37,887 bases of DNA from the IMG/VR virus record IMGVR_UViG_3300048110_000507, positions 1 to 37,887 of that record; one strand, written 5' to 3'. The stretch is from a virus. Below, one piece after another: positions 16,755-23,093 of the stretch. The notes below the pieces were generated by a model. That model was not told the DNA's origin. It saw only the letters and a program-made list of their open reading frames with translations, and made no database searches. The translations under genes and the position numbers were made by a program. Positions within the stretch are counted from its first letter, which is position 1; every line of letters begins with the position of its first letter.

Positions 16755-16906
16755 ATTTTATAGGTTTGTTTTAATGCAGTTCTAATTAACTGAGACACGT
16801 TCATGTCGCTTTCAGATGACACAAAATTTAAACTTCTAACCTCGCTAGGTGTAAGTCTAAATGTGATTCTATTTGATTTTTTTTCTATGATTTCTCCTCT
16901 ATCCAT
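16751..16906 (-). CDS. Ribbon-helix-helix DNA-binding protein
   Basis: This 51-aa protein is a compact RHH fold: strand N-R-I-T-F-R-L-T-P (residues 12-20), helix S-E-V-R-S-L-N-F-V, turn S-D-M-N-V-S (34-39) and helix Q-L-I-R-T-A-L-K. Dimers of such proteins insert the strands into the major groove, usually to repress nearby promoters. It lies directly after the hairpin at 16919-16982 and its TGA overlaps the ATG of the exonuclease gene. It may therefore control the recombination operon. Nothing in the sequence identifies the operator. Confidence 0.8.
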   Translation of the reverse strand: MDRGEIIEKKSNRITFRLTPSEVRSLNFVSSESDMNVSQLIRTALKQTYKI

Positions 16907-16918
16907 TTCTACGTTTTT

Positions 16919-16982
16919 AAAAAAAAGGGAGGGCAGTAAAGAGCGGTTGCTTTTACATTTTGTTGTTGGTTAAACCCTCCCT
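16919..16982 (-). terminator. Strong hairpin plus T run between the annealing-protein and RHH genes
   Basis: AGGGAGGG (16926-16933) pairs with CCCTCCCT (16975-16982). Inside, GTAAA and AGC pair with GCT and TTTAC around a four-base loop, with one bulged G. On the minus strand a T8 run follows at once (16926-16919). This is the most GC-rich structure in an AT-rich stretch. It lies 5 bp after the annealing-protein stop, so it should end or attenuate transcription before the RHH-exonuclease operon. Confidence 0.72.
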
Positions 16983-16987
16983 AAATG

Positions 16988-17827: not shown

Positions 17828-18790
17828 TTAAGATTTTATTAACAATTTATGGTTAAGTTCCTGTTTCTTTAAAGATTCTGTATCGCTATGTCTAACATAC
17901 CTATAGAAGGCTTCAGATCCATTTGCATGACCTGATATTCTTCTGACCTCCATCTCACTTAAACCTTTAGATAAATGATATGTAATACCACTACTTCTTA
18001 ATTTATGTGGTTTTATTAATTGATATAAAAATTGTTGTGAGGCAACAGGGTTTCCTTCATGATCAAAAGTATACACAGTTTTAGACTGCATAAACTCAGG
18101 ATAAAATTGCAACAGTTCCTCTAACCCTCTTCTAAATGTTTTTAATGTCCAAGAAAATGTACCATTTTTTGCAATGTAACTATTCACATCATCAGGCAGA
18201 AAAAATGTTGACAAAGATCCCATTCCTTTTTTAGTAATGATGGTAACTGTATTGCCATCACTTGTAGCCTGAAAGTTTGTGAGATCTGAAATCCTCATGC
18301 AAGAGTACAGCATCAGTCTTGTGTAATACCATATGTTTTCAAGTTCCTCTCCTGGGTTGTTGTTGTGAATCATCTCTACCTGATCAGGTGTAAGAGCAAT
18401 AACTTCTGTTTGTAACTCTCTCATTGACTGTAGTTTAGGAAAAACATAACCGTAGTAAGACTCTGCTTTCATAAGCGTTGCTCTTATATTTTTAAGGTGT
18501 GTTTTCCTGGTGTTAGGATGTTTACAATCGTCAAGCATTAAATTCAAATAACCATTTACATGGCTCTGTAATTTTCGGGTGACCTTAAGCCTATCCTTTC
18601 TATTGTTAACGTTGTTAAGATCTAACTCCTCAATATTGAAGTTATAATTATAATGGTCCATGCCACTACGCAATTGTTTGTATGCTCTTATAGTAAGAGG
18701 AGAAAACCTTTTACCATAATTTAGTATTTCTCCCTTTTCTAGGAGATCTATTATGTCTGTAAGTAAATATATAAATGTATTCTTCTTCAT
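17828..18790 (-). CDS. int: Tyrosine recombinase / phage integrase
   Basis: The 320-aa protein has a SAM-like N-terminal core-binding region (about residues 20-115) and a catalytic domain from about 130. Active-site residues are visible: R166 in CMRISDL, K187 or K188 in TKKG, H262-x-x-R265 in PHKLRSSG, H288 in ISGHAN, and the nucleophile Y298 (or Y296) in FYRYV. It would cut and rejoin attP and attB through a 3'-phosphotyrosine link. A tRNA-3'-end-like sequence lies about 85 bp upstream at 18873-18899, a usual place for attP. This points to a temperate lifestyle, or to a recombinase used for other site-specific events. Confidence 0.9.
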   Translation of the reverse strand: MKKNTFIYLLTDIIDLLEKGEILNYGKRFSPLTIRAYKQLRSGMDHYNYNFNIEELDLNNVNNRKDRLKVTRKLQSHVNGYLNLMLDDCKHPNTRKTHLKNIRATLMKAESYYGYVFPKLQSMRELQTEVIALTPDQVEMIHNNNPGEELENIWYYTRLMLYSCMRISDLTNFQATSDGNTVTIITKKGMGSLSTFFLPDDVNSYIAKNGTFSWTLKTFRRGLEELLQFYPEFMQSKTVYTFDHEGNPVASQQFLYQLIKPHKLRSSGITYHLSKGLSEMEVRRISGHANGSEAFYRYVRHSDTESLKKQELNHKLLIKS

Positions 18791-18872
18791 TGAAGTGTGA
18801 TTAAAAGTTAAACAAATCAGGTTGTTTTTTCAGTTTTCCGAAATCGCCCCATACTGAACGTATGAGGCATAA

Positions 18873-18899
18873 GGTTGTAGTCCCTAGGGGACTTGAACC
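18873..18899 (-). other. attP: Candidate attP: copy of the 3' end of a tRNA gene, palindromic
   Basis: Read on the minus strand, 18897-18878 has TTCAAGT (T-loop), CCCCT (T-stem 3' strand), AGGGACT (acceptor 3' strand) and A (discriminator). The 5' half of a tRNA is absent, so this is not a functional tRNA. Integrases often use the 3' end of a tRNA gene as attB, with a matching copy in the phage next to int. The site is also an imperfect inverted repeat: GGTT / AGTCCC, then GGGACT / AACC. A terminator for the gene ending at 18905 is the main alternative, but no T run follows. Confidence 0.5.
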
Positions 18900-18904
18900 A
18901 TCGT

Positions 18905-19165
18905 TCAACTGTTTATAATCTCATCTATTTCTTCAGAAAGCCGACCATAGTACTCTATGATCTTACATGACTCTTCAAATAATAGTGGAGATTGACCTGT
19001 TTTCTTTTGATTTAATGTACTCTTTTTAGATTTAGAGCCATATATATATTCACACACTTCTGTAGTTGGCACGCTAGGAATCTGTAGTAACTTATGTGCT
19101 TTAGATTTCAGAACGCTATGTGTTCTATGTCGTTTCATTTTCAGTTTAGGTTTTGTAGTTGTCAT
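18905..19165 (-). CDS. Small basic protein, possible HTH regulator
   Basis: The start at 19165 gives 86 aa (MTTTKPKLKMKRHRTHSVL...) and follows an A-rich leader; the longer frame to 19201 would overlap the upstream gene. A basic N-terminus precedes V-C-E-Y-I-Y-G-S-K-S-K-K-S-T-L-N-Q-K-K-T-G...L-L-F-E-E-S-C-K-I-I-E-Y-Y-G. That pattern recalls phage proteins with a short HTH (Y-L-x-x-K-L-N-G...E-L-x-x-I-x-x-x-F). It lies between the integrase with its candidate attP and the DnaA-IV-like gene. A role in control of integration or early genes is possible but not shown. Confidence 0.6.
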   Translation of the reverse strand: MTTTKPKLKMKRHRTHSVLKSKAHKLLQIPSVPTTEVCEYIYGSKSKKSTLNQKKTGQSPLLFEESCKIIEYYGRLSEEIDEIINS

Positions 19166-19175
19166 TATTTTTAAT

Positions 19176-20055: not shown

Positions 20056-20111
20056 AATAGTAGTTTTTTTTTTCAGTTTAAATTGTGGTCTGACAGGGCT
20101 AATTTAACCTT

Positions 20112-20291
20112 TTAGTCTGACATACCAAAATAATTTGTATCCGAAATTGAATCATCGTTCACCTGAAAGTGACCTAATAAGTTCTGTTTACCTCTTATGT
20201 TATGAAATAAAGTAAATATAAAATCATCACTTGCTCCAGGATATAAGGTTTTAATATTTTCAATTAGTTGTTGATCTCTTTTATTATGCAT
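20112..20291 (-). CDS. Small unknown protein (59 aa)
   Basis: The product begins MHNKRDQQLIENIKTLYPGA and continues with D-D-F-I-F-T-L-F-H-N and an acidic C-terminus (VNDDSISDTNYFGMSD). It is soluble, with a typical phage composition. The ATG overlaps the stop of the upstream 77-aa gene by 8 bp, which supports it. A 56-bp leader separates it from the gene starting at 20055. The family is not recognised. Confidence 0.6.
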   Translation of the reverse strand: MHNKRDQQLIENIKTLYPGASDDFIFTLFHNIRGKQNLLGHFQVNDDSISDTNYFGMSD

Positions 20292-20519: not shown

Positions 20520-20879
20520 TTATTTTTTTATTTCGTTAAATTGAATTACTAAATTTTCCTTCCAATGATCTTTGTCGTTGAGGTATTCATCTATAATTTT
20601 ATTAACTAATGGAAGTTCCTCTACTCCAAGACTTGACAACTTACTTACTAAAGCATCTATATGATTTTGAATATTCATAAAAAATTCTTCGTCATTTTTA
20701 GCAAACAGATTTACATATTTTTCCAACTCTCTCTCTAGTTCTTGTTCTGCTTGTTTCACTTTAAATTTTAAAGAGTGCTTAAATATTTTAAGTTCCTTTA
20801 CTTCGTCCAATGCTTCTAGCATTAATTGTCCATAGATGACAGCCTTGGTCACACTATAGAATACCTCTTGTTTTTCCAT
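20520..20879 (-). CDS. Helical protein of unknown function
   Basis: The start at 20879 (MEKQEVFYSV, 119 aa) is preferred because it overlaps the upstream stop as TAATG. An ATG at 20936 would place 57 bp inside the upstream gene. The sequence is dominated by charged helices (FKVKQAEQELERELEKYVN), likely a coiled coil. No domain is recognised. The TAATG coupling suggests joint expression with the zinc-ribbon gene upstream. Confidence 0.65.
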   Translation of the reverse strand: MEKQEVFYSVTKAVIYGQLMLEALDEVKELKIFKHSLKFKVKQAEQELERELEKYVNLFAKNDEEFFMNIQNHIDALVSKLSSLGVEELPLVNKIIDEYLNDKDHWKENLVIQFNEIKK

Positions 20880-21463
20880 TATGTTAGTGATGTTTTTAAT
20901 TGTTCTCTTGTCATACCATATTCTTCTACTAGCCATTTTAAAAATTGATCTTCGTCTTTAGTTTTGACAATTACAGATGTTGCAGAAGAAAATAAATTAC
21001 TTGTCAAACTAGTCACAATAGAAAACATTACAGGACAGTCCGTTTCTTCTTTAATTATAGCATCCATTAGATCATTTAATTTATGCTTCCAAGTAACGTC
21101 TTCATATCTACCTGTAATCCATCCTGACTCTATTTCTTTATAGCCTTCTTTAAATTCTACATCCATATACCCTCTCCATGCAGATGAATTTACCCATTTA
21201 CAATCTTTAACAGGTTGATGGTCTTCGTCATCATCTGTATAAATTTCTTCGTAATAAGTATTGAAGGCTTTACCTAATTCCATTGGGAAGTAATACTTCT
21301 TTGTCTCCTGATCTTGGGGTGACCATGTCTGAATTACAGTAGAGCGGTCTAAGGCCTGTGAATAACATTCTTCACATAGGATCTCATCGTTACGATCGTA
21401 TTGGTAAAAGTCTAGATCTTGATCTATCTCTTGTTCACAGCAATCACAAAAATTATTTTTCAT
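20879..21463 (-). CDS. Protein with an N-terminal zinc ribbon, unknown function
   Basis: The 194-aa product starts MKNNFCDCCEQEI, and a second cysteine pair follows in ILCEECY (residues 29-34), giving a four-Cys zinc ribbon. Residues 75-85 are very acidic (YTDDDEDHQ). The rest has no motif I know. Its start lies exactly 27 nt after the predicted cleavage site of the hammerhead ribozyme at 21486-21569, so its mRNA would begin with a ribozyme-made 5' end. Confidence 0.68.
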   Translation of the reverse strand: MKNNFCDCCEQEIDQDLDFYQYDRNDEILCEECYSQALDRSTVIQTWSPQDQETKKYYFPMELGKAFNTYYEEIYTDDDEDHQPVKDCKWVNSSAWRGYMDVEFKEGYKEIESGWITGRYEDVTWKHKLNDLMDAIIKEETDCPVMFSIVTSLTSNLFSSATSVIVKTKDEDQFLKWLVEEYGMTREQLKTSLT

Positions 21464-21485
21464 TTGTTTCAGTTTTAATTATTAT

Positions 21486-21569
21486 ACAAAGACGAGGGAG
21501 CCAAAATCATGGAGTCGTTCAAAACATTCTCCCTCGTTTCGCCTGAATTACACAGGCTCATCAGTCTGT
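21486..21569 (-). ncRNA. Type I hammerhead ribozyme, copy A
   Basis: On the minus strand: stem I 5' strand ACAGA (21569-21565), core CUGAUGA (21564-21558), stem II GCCUG/CAGGC (21557-21553, 21545-21541) with a 7-nt loop, GAAA (21540-21537), stem III CGAGGGAG/CUCCCUCG (21536-21529, 21500-21493) with a 28-nt loop, then UC, then stem I 3' strand UUUGU (21490-21486). All invariant hammerhead bases are present. Predicted cleavage is after C at 21491. The core contains the UGA stop of the 43-aa gene, and a 27-nt leader follows to the ATG at 21463. Confidence 0.92.
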
Positions 21570-21692
21570 TTTCTTTTTACGTTTAGGTTTCTCATAAACT
21601 ATATAACCGTTCTCATTTAGAAAACTTTTATACTTTTTTACTTTCCGTTGTTGAGCCCTGTAGTACTCGAATATTTCATTAGTAATTGCCAT
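21561..21692 (-). CDS. Tiny basic protein (43 aa) whose stop lies in a ribozyme core
   Basis: The product starts MAITNEIFEYYRAQQRKVKK and ends in a Lys/Arg-rich tail (KPKRKKKTD). Its TGA at 21563-21561 is part of the CUGAUGA core of hammerhead copy A. Ribosomes ending translation here would cover the ribozyme core, so translation and cleavage could compete. The leader upstream is A-rich. Family unknown. Confidence 0.6.
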   Translation of the reverse strand: MAITNEIFEYYRAQQRKVKKYKSFLNENGYIVYEKPKRKKKTD

Positions 21693-21723
21693 AGTTTTAA
21701 TTTTTATTAGTTAATAATTAATA

Positions 21724-21882
21724 TCAATCGTATTCTCTCATGTTTATTGGTTCAACTTTAAATGTTACACATAGTTCATTATATGTTTCTACTCCACAGC
21801 GAGACATTCTTTGTGTCTCCCAACCAAGGTCAACTAATTGCTCTTGGATCTCTGCTAATTTTTTTGATGTGATTACAGCCAT
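21724..21882 (-). CDS. Small unknown protein (52 aa)
   Basis: The product begins MAVITSKKLAEIQEQLVDLG and contains W-E-T-Q-R-M-S-R-C-G-V-E-T-Y-N-E-L-C-V-T-F-K-V. This looks like a helix followed by a beta hairpin. Its ATG shares the A of the upstream stop (TAATG), so it is translationally coupled to the 135-aa gene. No function is recognised. Confidence 0.6.
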   Translation of the reverse strand: MAVITSKKLAEIQEQLVDLGWETQRMSRCGVETYNELCVTFKVEPINMREYD

Positions 21883-22289
21883 TATGAATTATATTTTAAA
21901 GTGAAGTAGATCATATCTAACAATTCATCTTTTGGTTCATCTAAATCCATGATGCTCATAATCTCGTCAATTACTCTCATCATTCCTTTACCTTCGGCAG
22001 CATCGTGAGAGTCTCCGGCATCAAGTAATTCCTGTGCTTGTTCTTCTAGGCTGTAACGATTTGGGGTGACCTCCTCTTTATTCTCAACCCAAGGACATGC
22101 TTTATTGTATAGAGAGAGAGCAAGATCTTTATTACCTATAGCGGTCATAAGAACATTTAACTCGTTACGTTGTGATGTACCTCTACGGTATACTCCAGGA
22201 TCCTCAGATCTTTGGTAGTGCCAATCATGACTGTTCAAAGCATTTTGTAGTTTGATGATTGCATTTAATTTTTGAATTTCAGTTTGCAT
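21882..22289 (-). CDS. Unknown protein (135 aa) expressed behind hammerhead copy B
   Basis: This soluble protein begins MQTEIQKLNAIIKLQNALN with helical, acidic stretches (SLEEQAQELLDAGDSHDAAE; DEIMSIMDLDEPKDELLDMI). No domain is recognised. The ATG lies 27 nt after the predicted cleavage site of hammerhead copy B (22317|22316), the same distance as for the gene behind copy A. The repeat motif TTGGGGTGACC occurs inside the gene at 22061. Confidence 0.68.
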   Translation of the reverse strand: MQTEIQKLNAIIKLQNALNSHDWHYQRSEDPGVYRRGTSQRNELNVLMTAIGNKDLALSLYNKACPWVENKEEVTPNRYSLEEQAQELLDAGDSHDAAEGKGMMRVIDEIMSIMDLDEPKDELLDMIYFTLKYNS

Positions 22290-22311
22290 TGTAATAGTTT
22301 TTTTTAGTTAT

Positions 22312-22365
22312 ACAAAGACGCTCCGTAGAGCGTTTCGCCTGAATCTCACAGGCTCGTCAGTTTGT
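22312..22365 (-). ncRNA. Type I hammerhead ribozyme, copy B
   Basis: On the minus strand: stem I ACAAA (22365-22361), core CUGACGA (22360-22354), stem II GCCUG/CAGGC (22353-22349, 22341-22337), GAAA (22336-22333), stem III CGCUC/GAGCG (22332-22328, 22323-22319) closed by UACG, UC, then UUUGU (22316-22312), which pairs perfectly with ACAAA. Predicted cleavage is between 22317 and 22316. It begins directly after the TAA of the 47-aa membrane-protein gene and leaves a 27-nt leader to the ATG at 22289. Confidence 0.94.
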
Positions 22366-22509
22366 TTATCCTAGATATCCGAAACTTGCGTTAGGATCTA
22401 TACCTTCTGTTAATAGATGAAAGATCAGCATTATGAATGACACAGCCCATAGTGTGAATAAAGATCCTAAAAGGCTATTGATTACGATTGGTTGAATTTT
22501 GTTTAACAT
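22366..22509 (-). CDS. Small membrane protein (47 aa)
   Basis: The product begins MLNKIQPIVINSLLGSLFTL and continues with W-A-V-S-F-I-M-L-I-F-H-L-L, one transmembrane helix of about 22 residues, then a short polar tail (TEGIDPNASFGYLG). Its TAA is adjacent to the first base of hammerhead copy B. The leader carries AATTTAAACTGAAA. Phage early membrane peptides sometimes block superinfection or change the envelope; nothing here shows which. Confidence 0.6.
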   Translation of the reverse strand: MLNKIQPIVINSLLGSLFTLWAVSFIMLIFHLLTEGIDPNASFGYLG

Positions 22510-22536
22510 AGTTTTTCAGTTTAAATTATTAATTGA

Positions 22537-22677
22537 TTAATTAAAGTTTGTAAGATTCATTAGATCAGATTGTCTCTCAATAAGATCCATAGCGGACAGC
22601 AATGCTAGTCCTAGAAAAGTAATTGCTATTGCGACTACTGTTGCGATTAATACTAATTTCAGTTTTGATTTTTTCAC
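22537..22677 (-). CDS. Small membrane protein (46 aa) with a GTG start
   Basis: The product begins (M)KKSKLKLVLIATVVAIAITF and continues into a single hydrophobic helix, then M-D-L-I-E-R-Q-S-D-L-M-N. The Lys-rich N-terminus predicts that it stays in the cytoplasm. The GTG at 22677 is chosen because it gives a 28-nt leader from the cleavage site of hammerhead copy C, matching the 27 nt of the two other units. No upstream ATG is in frame. Confidence 0.58.
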   Translation of the reverse strand: MKKSKLKLVLIATVVAIAITFLGLALLSAMDLIERQSDLMNLTNFN

Positions 22678-22699
22678 TTTGTTTATTTTTTAGTGATTT

Positions 22700-22750
22700 G
22701 ACAATGACGCTCCGCAGAGCGTTTCGATCATTAGATCTCATCAGATTGCC
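22700..22750 (-). ncRNA. Type I hammerhead ribozyme, copy C
   Basis: On the minus strand: stem I GGCAAU (22750-22745), core CUGAUGA (22744-22738), stem II GAUC/GAUC (22737-22734, 22729-22726) with loop UAAU, GAAA (22725-22722), stem III CGCUC/GAGCG (22721-22717, 22712-22708) with loop UGCG, UC, then stem I AUUGUC (22705-22700), six pairs including one G-U. Predicted cleavage is between 22706 and 22705. It begins 3 bp after the stop of the 88-aa gene and leaves a 28-nt leader to the GTG at 22677. Stems I and II differ in sequence from copies A and B but stay paired. Confidence 0.93.
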
Positions 22751-22753
22751 TTG

Positions 22754-23020
22754 TTATTCAAACATTTCTTTAGTAAGGTGAATTTGGTAAAGATCAGTCA
22801 TCTGCAATGCTCCATGTACAGACATTAAAAGATCATATCTGTTTTGGTGGTGCTTATAACCCTTCATTGTTCTGACGTTATAAAGCATTGTTTGGTGGTA
22901 AGTAATTCCTAGTTTTAAAACAGACATTTGAAAGATGATGTCTTCTAGGTTTAAGAAACGTCTTCTACTAGTGTTAGACTTTACGTTTTGGTGTTGTGTA
23001 CTTGAAATTTGAACTCTCAT
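22754..23020 (-). CDS. First gene of the ribozyme-containing operon, unknown function
   Basis: The 88-aa product has a basic, Ser/Arg-rich N-terminus (MRVQISSTQHQNVKSNTSRRR) and a helical C-terminal half rich in H, Y and Q (TYHQTMLYNVRTMKGYKHHQ). It is possibly a nucleic-acid-binding protein but has no known motif. A good Bacteroidota-type promoter lies 41 bp upstream, so this is probably the promoter-proximal gene of the transcript that contains all three hammerheads. Confidence 0.65.
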   Translation of the reverse strand: MRVQISSTQHQNVKSNTSRRRFLNLEDIIFQMSVLKLGITYHQTMLYNVRTMKGYKHHQNRYDLLMSVHGALQMTDLYQIHLTKEMFE

Positions 23021-23060: not shown

Positions 23061-23093
23061 CAAATATAACGAATTATTTTCTTAACAACCAAA
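23061..23093 (-). promoter_or_regulatory. Bacteroidota-type promoter for the small-gene operon
   Basis: On the minus strand, TATATTTG (23068-23061) is a perfect TAnnTTTG -7 element, and TTTG (23093-23090) lies 21 bp upstream at the -33 position. A start about 5 nt downstream would give a leader of about 35 nt to the ATG at 23020. The pattern is the consensus for Bacteroidota housekeeping sigma factors, so the host polymerase probably reads it. Confidence 0.68.

Follow-up and report, generated by a model that had tools for sequence, protein, structure and literature searches.

The mRNA of one operon in a Bacteroidota phage probably contains three self-cleaving type I hammerhead ribozymes, HH1, HH2 and HH3, which would split it into separate mRNAs. 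The operon lies in the window, by which we mean the whole stretch of DNA that was analysed, the 37,887-base virus record IMGVR_UViG_3300048110_000507. The value of the finding lies in a spacing rule, in the linkage of each ribozyme to the gene downstream of it and in a cultured test system.

The hammerheads and their gene map

HH1, HH2 and HH3 all contain the exact hammerhead core, CUGANGA, GAAA and UH in that order, with a UC cleavage site, and three helices surround the core with the open end at stem I (Table 1). Stem I measures 5-6 bp, stem II 4-5 bp and stem III 7-9 bp counting the A15.1-U16.1 pair. In HH1 a long stem III is capped by a conserved loop of 28-30 nt. A descriptor demanding CUGANGA, stem II of at least 4 bp, GAA, stem III of at least 5 bp, UH and stem I of at least 4 bp returned exactly these three elements from the window, compared with 0.005 hits per Markov-shuffled window. 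The scan agrees in coordinates, strand, core and cut sites with an earlier note on this DNA, which had claimed three type I hammerheads. All of the stems listed there are present as well; for stem III the note fell short by at least one pair in every copy, because A15.1-U16.1 closes the helix. The array is dense, with three hammerheads within 1.3 kb and 3-4 in relatives.

Stem I of HH1 and HH2 consists of five weak pairs that have near-zero probability in a thermodynamic fold in context, and stem II of HH1 also faces competition from the local fold. Activity of these two ribozymes must therefore rest on tertiary contacts, for which we did not identify the partner. Loop II has the sequence UGAGAY in several phages, but no tertiary partner was found for it; stem I is short and unlooped, and inspection by eye for a pseudoknot between loop II and the leader gave no shared complement. 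Intrinsic terminators were set aside as an identity for these elements. The stem III hairpins run into UC and stem I with no clear U-run, and the conserved core would be needless for a terminator.

The operon begins behind a match to a Bacteroidota-type promoter and comprises a run of small genes of 88, 46, 47, 135, 52, 43 and 194 aa, followed by more, all on the minus strand. In three of its gaps the coding strand carries a hammerhead. The earlier note's placement of the ribozymes at gene borders of one co-directional unit is thus borne out. A tRNA also lies beside a hammerhead array in two related loci (L053, L039). The window comes from a tailed phage, as its genes for a terminase, a portal, a primase/helicase, a RecE-like exonuclease and an integrase show, and the integrase-like gene a few kb downstream of the array suggests that the phage is temperate. 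The closest annotated terminases and primases share about 31-37% identity and come mostly from phages of Flavobacterium, Cellulophaga and Tenacibaculum, and also from unassigned records. Together with the promoter match these relatives support the assignment to a Bacteroidota phage made earlier. Searches of Pfam, PHROG and the PDB gave no convincing match for the proteins neighbouring the hammerheads, and their AlphaFold models are of low confidence (mean pLDDT 60 and 58). The tRNA is the only DNA that we found to be shared with named phages or plasmids. Three long intergenic gaps on the array strand (20056-20283, 18791-19175 and 16755-16987) contain no hammerhead and no Rfam match.

Table 1. 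Features of the ribozyme operon and its surroundings in the window, in the direction of transcription.
Feature	Position	Strand	Description
tRNA-Arg(TCT)	23284-23211	(-)	just upstream of the ribozyme operon's promoter
Promoter match, Bacteroidota-type (TTG-N-TAnnTTTG)	23061..23092	(-)	ahead of the 88-aa gene
88-aa gene	22754..23020	(-)	function unassigned; precedes HH3, with its stop codon 3 nt ahead of stem I
HH3, predicted type I hammerhead	22700..22750	(-)	stem I GGCAAU/AUUGUC, II GAUC/GAUC, III ACGCUCU/GGAGCGU; predicted cut 22706/22705
HH3 leader, 28 nt	22678..22705	(-)	cut to GTG of the 46-aa gene
46-aa gene	22537..22677	(-)	small membrane-type protein (membrane segment inferred from sequence); downstream of HH3; GTG start
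47-aa gene	22366..22509	(-)	small membrane-type protein; upstream of HH2; TAA abuts stem I
HH2, predicted type I hammerhead	22312..22365	(-)	stem I ACAAA/UUUGU, II GCCUG/CAGGC, III ACGCUCU/GGAGCGU; predicted cut 22317/22316
HH2 leader, 27 nt	22290..22316	(-)	cut to ATG of the 135-aa gene
135-aa gene	21882..22289	(-)	function unassigned; directly downstream of HH2; ATG start
52-aa gene	21882-21724	(-)	same run of small genes
43-aa gene	21561..21692	(-)	basic protein; upstream of HH1; TGA stop inside ribozyme core
HH1, predicted type I hammerhead	21486..21569	(-)	stem I ACAGA/UUUGU, II GCCUG/CAGGC, III ACGAGGGAG/CUCCCUCGU; predicted cut 21491/21490
HH1 leader, 27 nt	21464..21490	(-)	cut to ATG of the 194-aa gene
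194-aa gene	20879..21463	(-)	CxxC pairs near start; downstream of HH1; ATG start
Tyrosine-type integrase-like gene	17828-18790	(-)	few kb downstream of array, same strand

Covariance models and pairing in related phages

The Rfam 15 models all scored below their gathering thresholds on the window. The best Rfam alignment for HH2 was to RAGATH-1-hammerhead (RF03152), with 21.5 bits against a gathering score of 56.3; Hammerhead_3 reached 18.5 and 15.9 (gathering 48.5) and HH9 reached 13 (gathering 52). The elements share the core and three-stem architecture with RF00163, RF00008, RF02275, RF02276 and RF02277, but the forms in the window lie below the gathering scores of these families. With RF03152 they share a type I-like layout, although its extra upstream hairpin is poorly matched in the window. 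We then found that Rfam at gathering thresholds, applied to 15 related viral loci with more than 20 perfect-core hammerheads, reports one type II and zero type I elements. Since Rfam is blind to the type I relatives, its sub-threshold scores are uninformative on HH1-HH3, and we dropped it as a judge of membership. It follows that Rfam annotation overlooks phage type I hammerheads of this group. The type II element lies in a phage locus (L026, 5747-5683, minus strand; RF02276, 46.3 bits) that also contains a type I hammerhead.

A covariance model was trained on 39 hammerheads from other phages, the lineage of the window being excluded. This held-out model finds HH2 (E 9.2e-17), HH3 (E 3.4e-15) and HH1 (E 1.5e-4) and gives no other match in the window; the lower score of HH1 arises because its long stem III lies partly outside the model. 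The earlier note had named sub-threshold covariance scores for all three elements as one half of what would count against them. Taken literally, the Rfam scores are that half, but the held-out model recovers all three.

Two pattern scans of viral contigs yielded at least 181 distinct type I hammerheads in at least 146 loci. Because the scanner itself demands pairing, we tested pairing on matches chosen without regard to it. With a pattern of the core and the stem III base only, 156 of the 165 unique matches listed can form 4 bp or more of stem I at the predicted register, compared with 0.8% for slid registers. With a pattern of stem II only, stems III and I are present in 39 of 44 contexts among the matches listed, compared with 0.2% for shuffled flanks. 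The GCCUG/CAGGC pattern has 5 exact matches in cellular genomes, at least two of which lack stems I and III. The 100% pairing seen in one family alignment follows from the way its sequences were selected and is not counted as evidence.

Changes between the window and its positional orthologues point the same way. Stem II of HH3 changes from GAUC/GAUC to GACC/GGUC, and its stem I from GGCAAU/AUUGUC to GGCAUU/AAUGUC or GACAUU/AAUGUC. In HH1, stem II changes from GCCUG/CAGGC to GCCCG/CGGGC and stem III from ACGAGGGAG/CUCCCUCGU to ACGGAGGG/CCCUCCGU. The helices of HH1-HH3 thus appear to be kept by compensatory changes, and the architecture and conserved pairing of the ribozymes can be read from the sequence itself. 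The earlier argument from pairing kept through change was right, but thin on three elements alone; its real support comes from the comparative data.

The covariance model also finds a hammerhead in cultured phages, the Elemovirus isolates of Flavobacterium sp. BAL314 (L200 to L204; MT497078.1 27096-27151). Its stem I is GGCAAA/UUUGUC, a TAG stop codon overlaps its first base, and 28 nt separate the predicted cut from the ATG. Stem II is intact in those elemoA, B and C isolates that were examined (GGUU/AACC) and in elemoE 6-9C (GACU/AGUC), a double compensatory difference between otherwise near-identical phages. In elemoE 10-3D stem II is mismatched (GACU/AACC), as it is in elemoD 13-5B and elemoF 6-3D, for which this follows from 100% identity. 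The mismatched form occurs beside both intact versions, as if recombination had taken place inside the Elemovirus ribozyme. Its presence in isolates shows that loss of stem II is tolerated, and cleavage may be dispensable for laboratory growth. The intact and naturally broken cassettes provide a natural pair of putatively active and weakened ribozymes for direct testing.

Position between stop codon and start codon

The geometry of the gene borders was analyzed in 173 non-redundant phage contexts among the matches listed. A stop codon abuts stem I in 57 of these, compared with 8.3 expected from a flat upstream background per position. Two more stop-codon peaks fall at +6 within stem I and at +8 in the core. 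Part of the latter is a given, since every CUGANGA carries a UGA, which does not apply to the abutting peak. Downstream, the density of ATG rises to 8.0 per position at 20-37 nt past the cut; the range 0-15 nt has 1.5 and the range 42-56 nt has 3.1. Of the 173 contexts, 140 contain an ATG between 18 and 39 nt past the cut. The leaders predicted in the window are of similar length to ribozyme-free gaps on the array strand, three of which measure 27, 31 and 28 nt; the other gaps overlap, are near zero or are longer. The ribozyme therefore looks like a cassette placed between a stop codon and an ordinary leader.

The ribozymes also stay with the gene that follows them. HH2 (ACAAA/UUUGU) lies directly before the 135-aa gene in 19/19 loci that have this gene, while the upstream gene differs in 5. 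The 194-aa gene follows HH1 in 18/18 loci that have this gene, with an extra small frame in between in L024 and L029, and HH1 is absent from eight loci that span the site without the 194-aa gene; many of these loci are near-duplicates of a few phages, so that independent cases are fewer than the counts. The linkage suggests that each ribozyme is passed on together with the downstream gene, as its 5' part. Like the order of stop codon, ribozyme, leader and start codon, this tie is a direct observation on the gene maps. We did not find the spacing rule or the downstream tie in the openly accessible literature covered, and we claim no priority for either.

Both observations bear on the possibility that the folded ribozyme shields the upstream mRNA from 3' exonucleases and that the new downstream end is incidental. 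Abutment on the upstream stop codon is the tightest possible placement for a 3' cap structure. Within the lineage of the window, however, the ribozyme tracks the downstream gene and not the upstream one, and the length of the leader downstream is constrained as well. We consider protection of the 3' end as the sole purpose to be unlikely.

Proposed processing of the operon mRNA and competing readings

The best reading of the array is mRNA processing. Each ribozyme would cut the polycistronic transcript during its synthesis. Hammerheads cleave after H17. Of the two products, the upstream one then ends in a 2',3'-cyclic phosphate and the downstream one starts with a 5'-OH (PMC6155905). The last part of the upstream mRNA, directly after its stop codon, would be the compactly folded ribozyme and its cyclic phosphate, and the downstream mRNA would begin with a 5'-hydroxyl and a leader of 27-28 nt, just enough for ribosome loading. 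The likely benefit would be that each small accessory gene has its own stability and translation under one common promoter. We infer both cleavage in the infected cell and selection for a separate fate of the mRNAs. The role of bacterial and phage hammerheads is called open in a review that repeats the link to phages (PMC6155905) and likewise in a 2023 paper (PMC10085705). The regular spacing of stop codon, ribozyme, leader and start codon gives a concrete and testable idea of that role.

The array joins an already known kind of clustered phage hammerheads. According to Perreault et al. 2011 (PMC3088659), clustered hammerheads flank single genes in prophages, with arrays in Agrobacterium tumefaciens, Azorhizobium caulinodans and Clostridium scindens, and processing into single-gene mRNAs was proposed for them. 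The paper describes cleavage of three arrays, with a triple array cut in vitro and in E. coli, and notes hammerheads near integrases. Like these prophage arrays (PMC3088659), the window has several hammerheads per transcription unit flanking small phage genes, in a triple array near an integrase gene. It differs from them in host group and genes, and cleavage here is predicted from sequence. The "dedicated mRNA-processing system" that had been proposed for the window thus points in the right direction, but the claims that three hammerheads in series are unusual and that they indicate a newly dedicated system are not supported, as arrays of this kind were described in that study (PMC3088659).

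Tandem hammerheads in retrozymes and viroid-like RNAs are likewise repeated ribozymes that release defined RNA segments. The ribozymes of the window, unlike those, are not alike in sequence, and they sit between protein-coding genes of a DNA phage. In retrozymes, hammerheads in near-identical direct repeats bound a non-coding retroelement. We rejected membership in this class, as the stems and loops of HH1-HH3 differ and protein genes flank them.

A different product would result if ligation were the point of the array, with a common stem I allowing cut segments to circularize or join into circular or spliced mRNAs. HH1 and HH2 do both have UUUGU in stem I. Among the matches listed, in the 37 phages with at least two hammerheads, 51% of ordered pairs have stem I strands that cross-pair over 4 bp or more, compared with 7% when permuted (0/1000). 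In the same 37 phages and matches stem III is not common within a phage (33% compared with 35% permuted) and stem II is so more weakly (36% compared with 17%). Sharing of stem I within a phage can be seen, for example, in loci L085, L081, L177 and L164. However, stem I of HH3 differs from that of HH1 and HH2, and in relatives stem I of HH2 has changed (ACCU, AACCU) while HH1 kept GCAAA, so that sharing is not kept in the lineage of the window. Sharing could also go back to a common ancestor, with the stop codon or tertiary contacts constraining stem I. Circular and spliced products were sought by Perreault et al., who saw none (PMC3088659). We regard ligation as quite unlikely to be what the array serves. 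The narrower proposal, that interchangeable stems I in one phage genome are kept for re-ligation into circular mRNAs or reordered gene combinations, seems very unlikely; if true, such molecules would be made from a single transcript.

Cleavage by HH1-HH3 could also be regulated, with terminating ribosomes or a factor bound to the conserved loop III of HH1 deciding whether the cut is made. The stop codon of the 43-aa gene lies in the HH1 core itself (GAC UGA UGA; C-UGA-UGA), so that a terminating ribosome would cover the core, a point in favor of regulation. Loop III of HH1, UGUUUUGAACGA..CAUGAUUUU, is conserved above a stem that changes, and may possibly be a binding site. This type of loop was found in 16 viral contigs, and every copy examined sits in an HH1-type ribozyme. 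These contigs represent one lineage only, though; the loop has no known ligand, and most other hammerheads have 2-4 nt at this position. We give regulation of this kind a very small chance. The 28-30 nt loop III, in the region 21531-21491 of the window, also occurs in loci L018, L022, L024, L029, L039 and L189.

That HH1-HH3 are decayed, inactive hammerhead-like sequences with no present role would fit the sub-threshold Rfam scores, the weak stem I and the broken stem II of some cultured relatives, but is highly improbable, since the cores are invariant and compensatory changes occur in orthologues flanked by proteins with identity as low as about 47%.

Returning to mRNA processing, a general 5' hairpin in the released mRNA was considered and dropped, as AT-rich phages including the window give a value of 0.57 compared with 0.475 for the control, which is not clearly above it. 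Several GC-richer phages (GC 0.52 and above) give 0.45-0.50 at the released 5' end compared with about 0.24 for controls. In loci L164, L134, L141, L006, L011, L037 and L058 the released end can refold into such a hairpin, with the 3' strand of stem I paired with a copy of its partner in the leader, for example UACGGAAUCCACCGUA.
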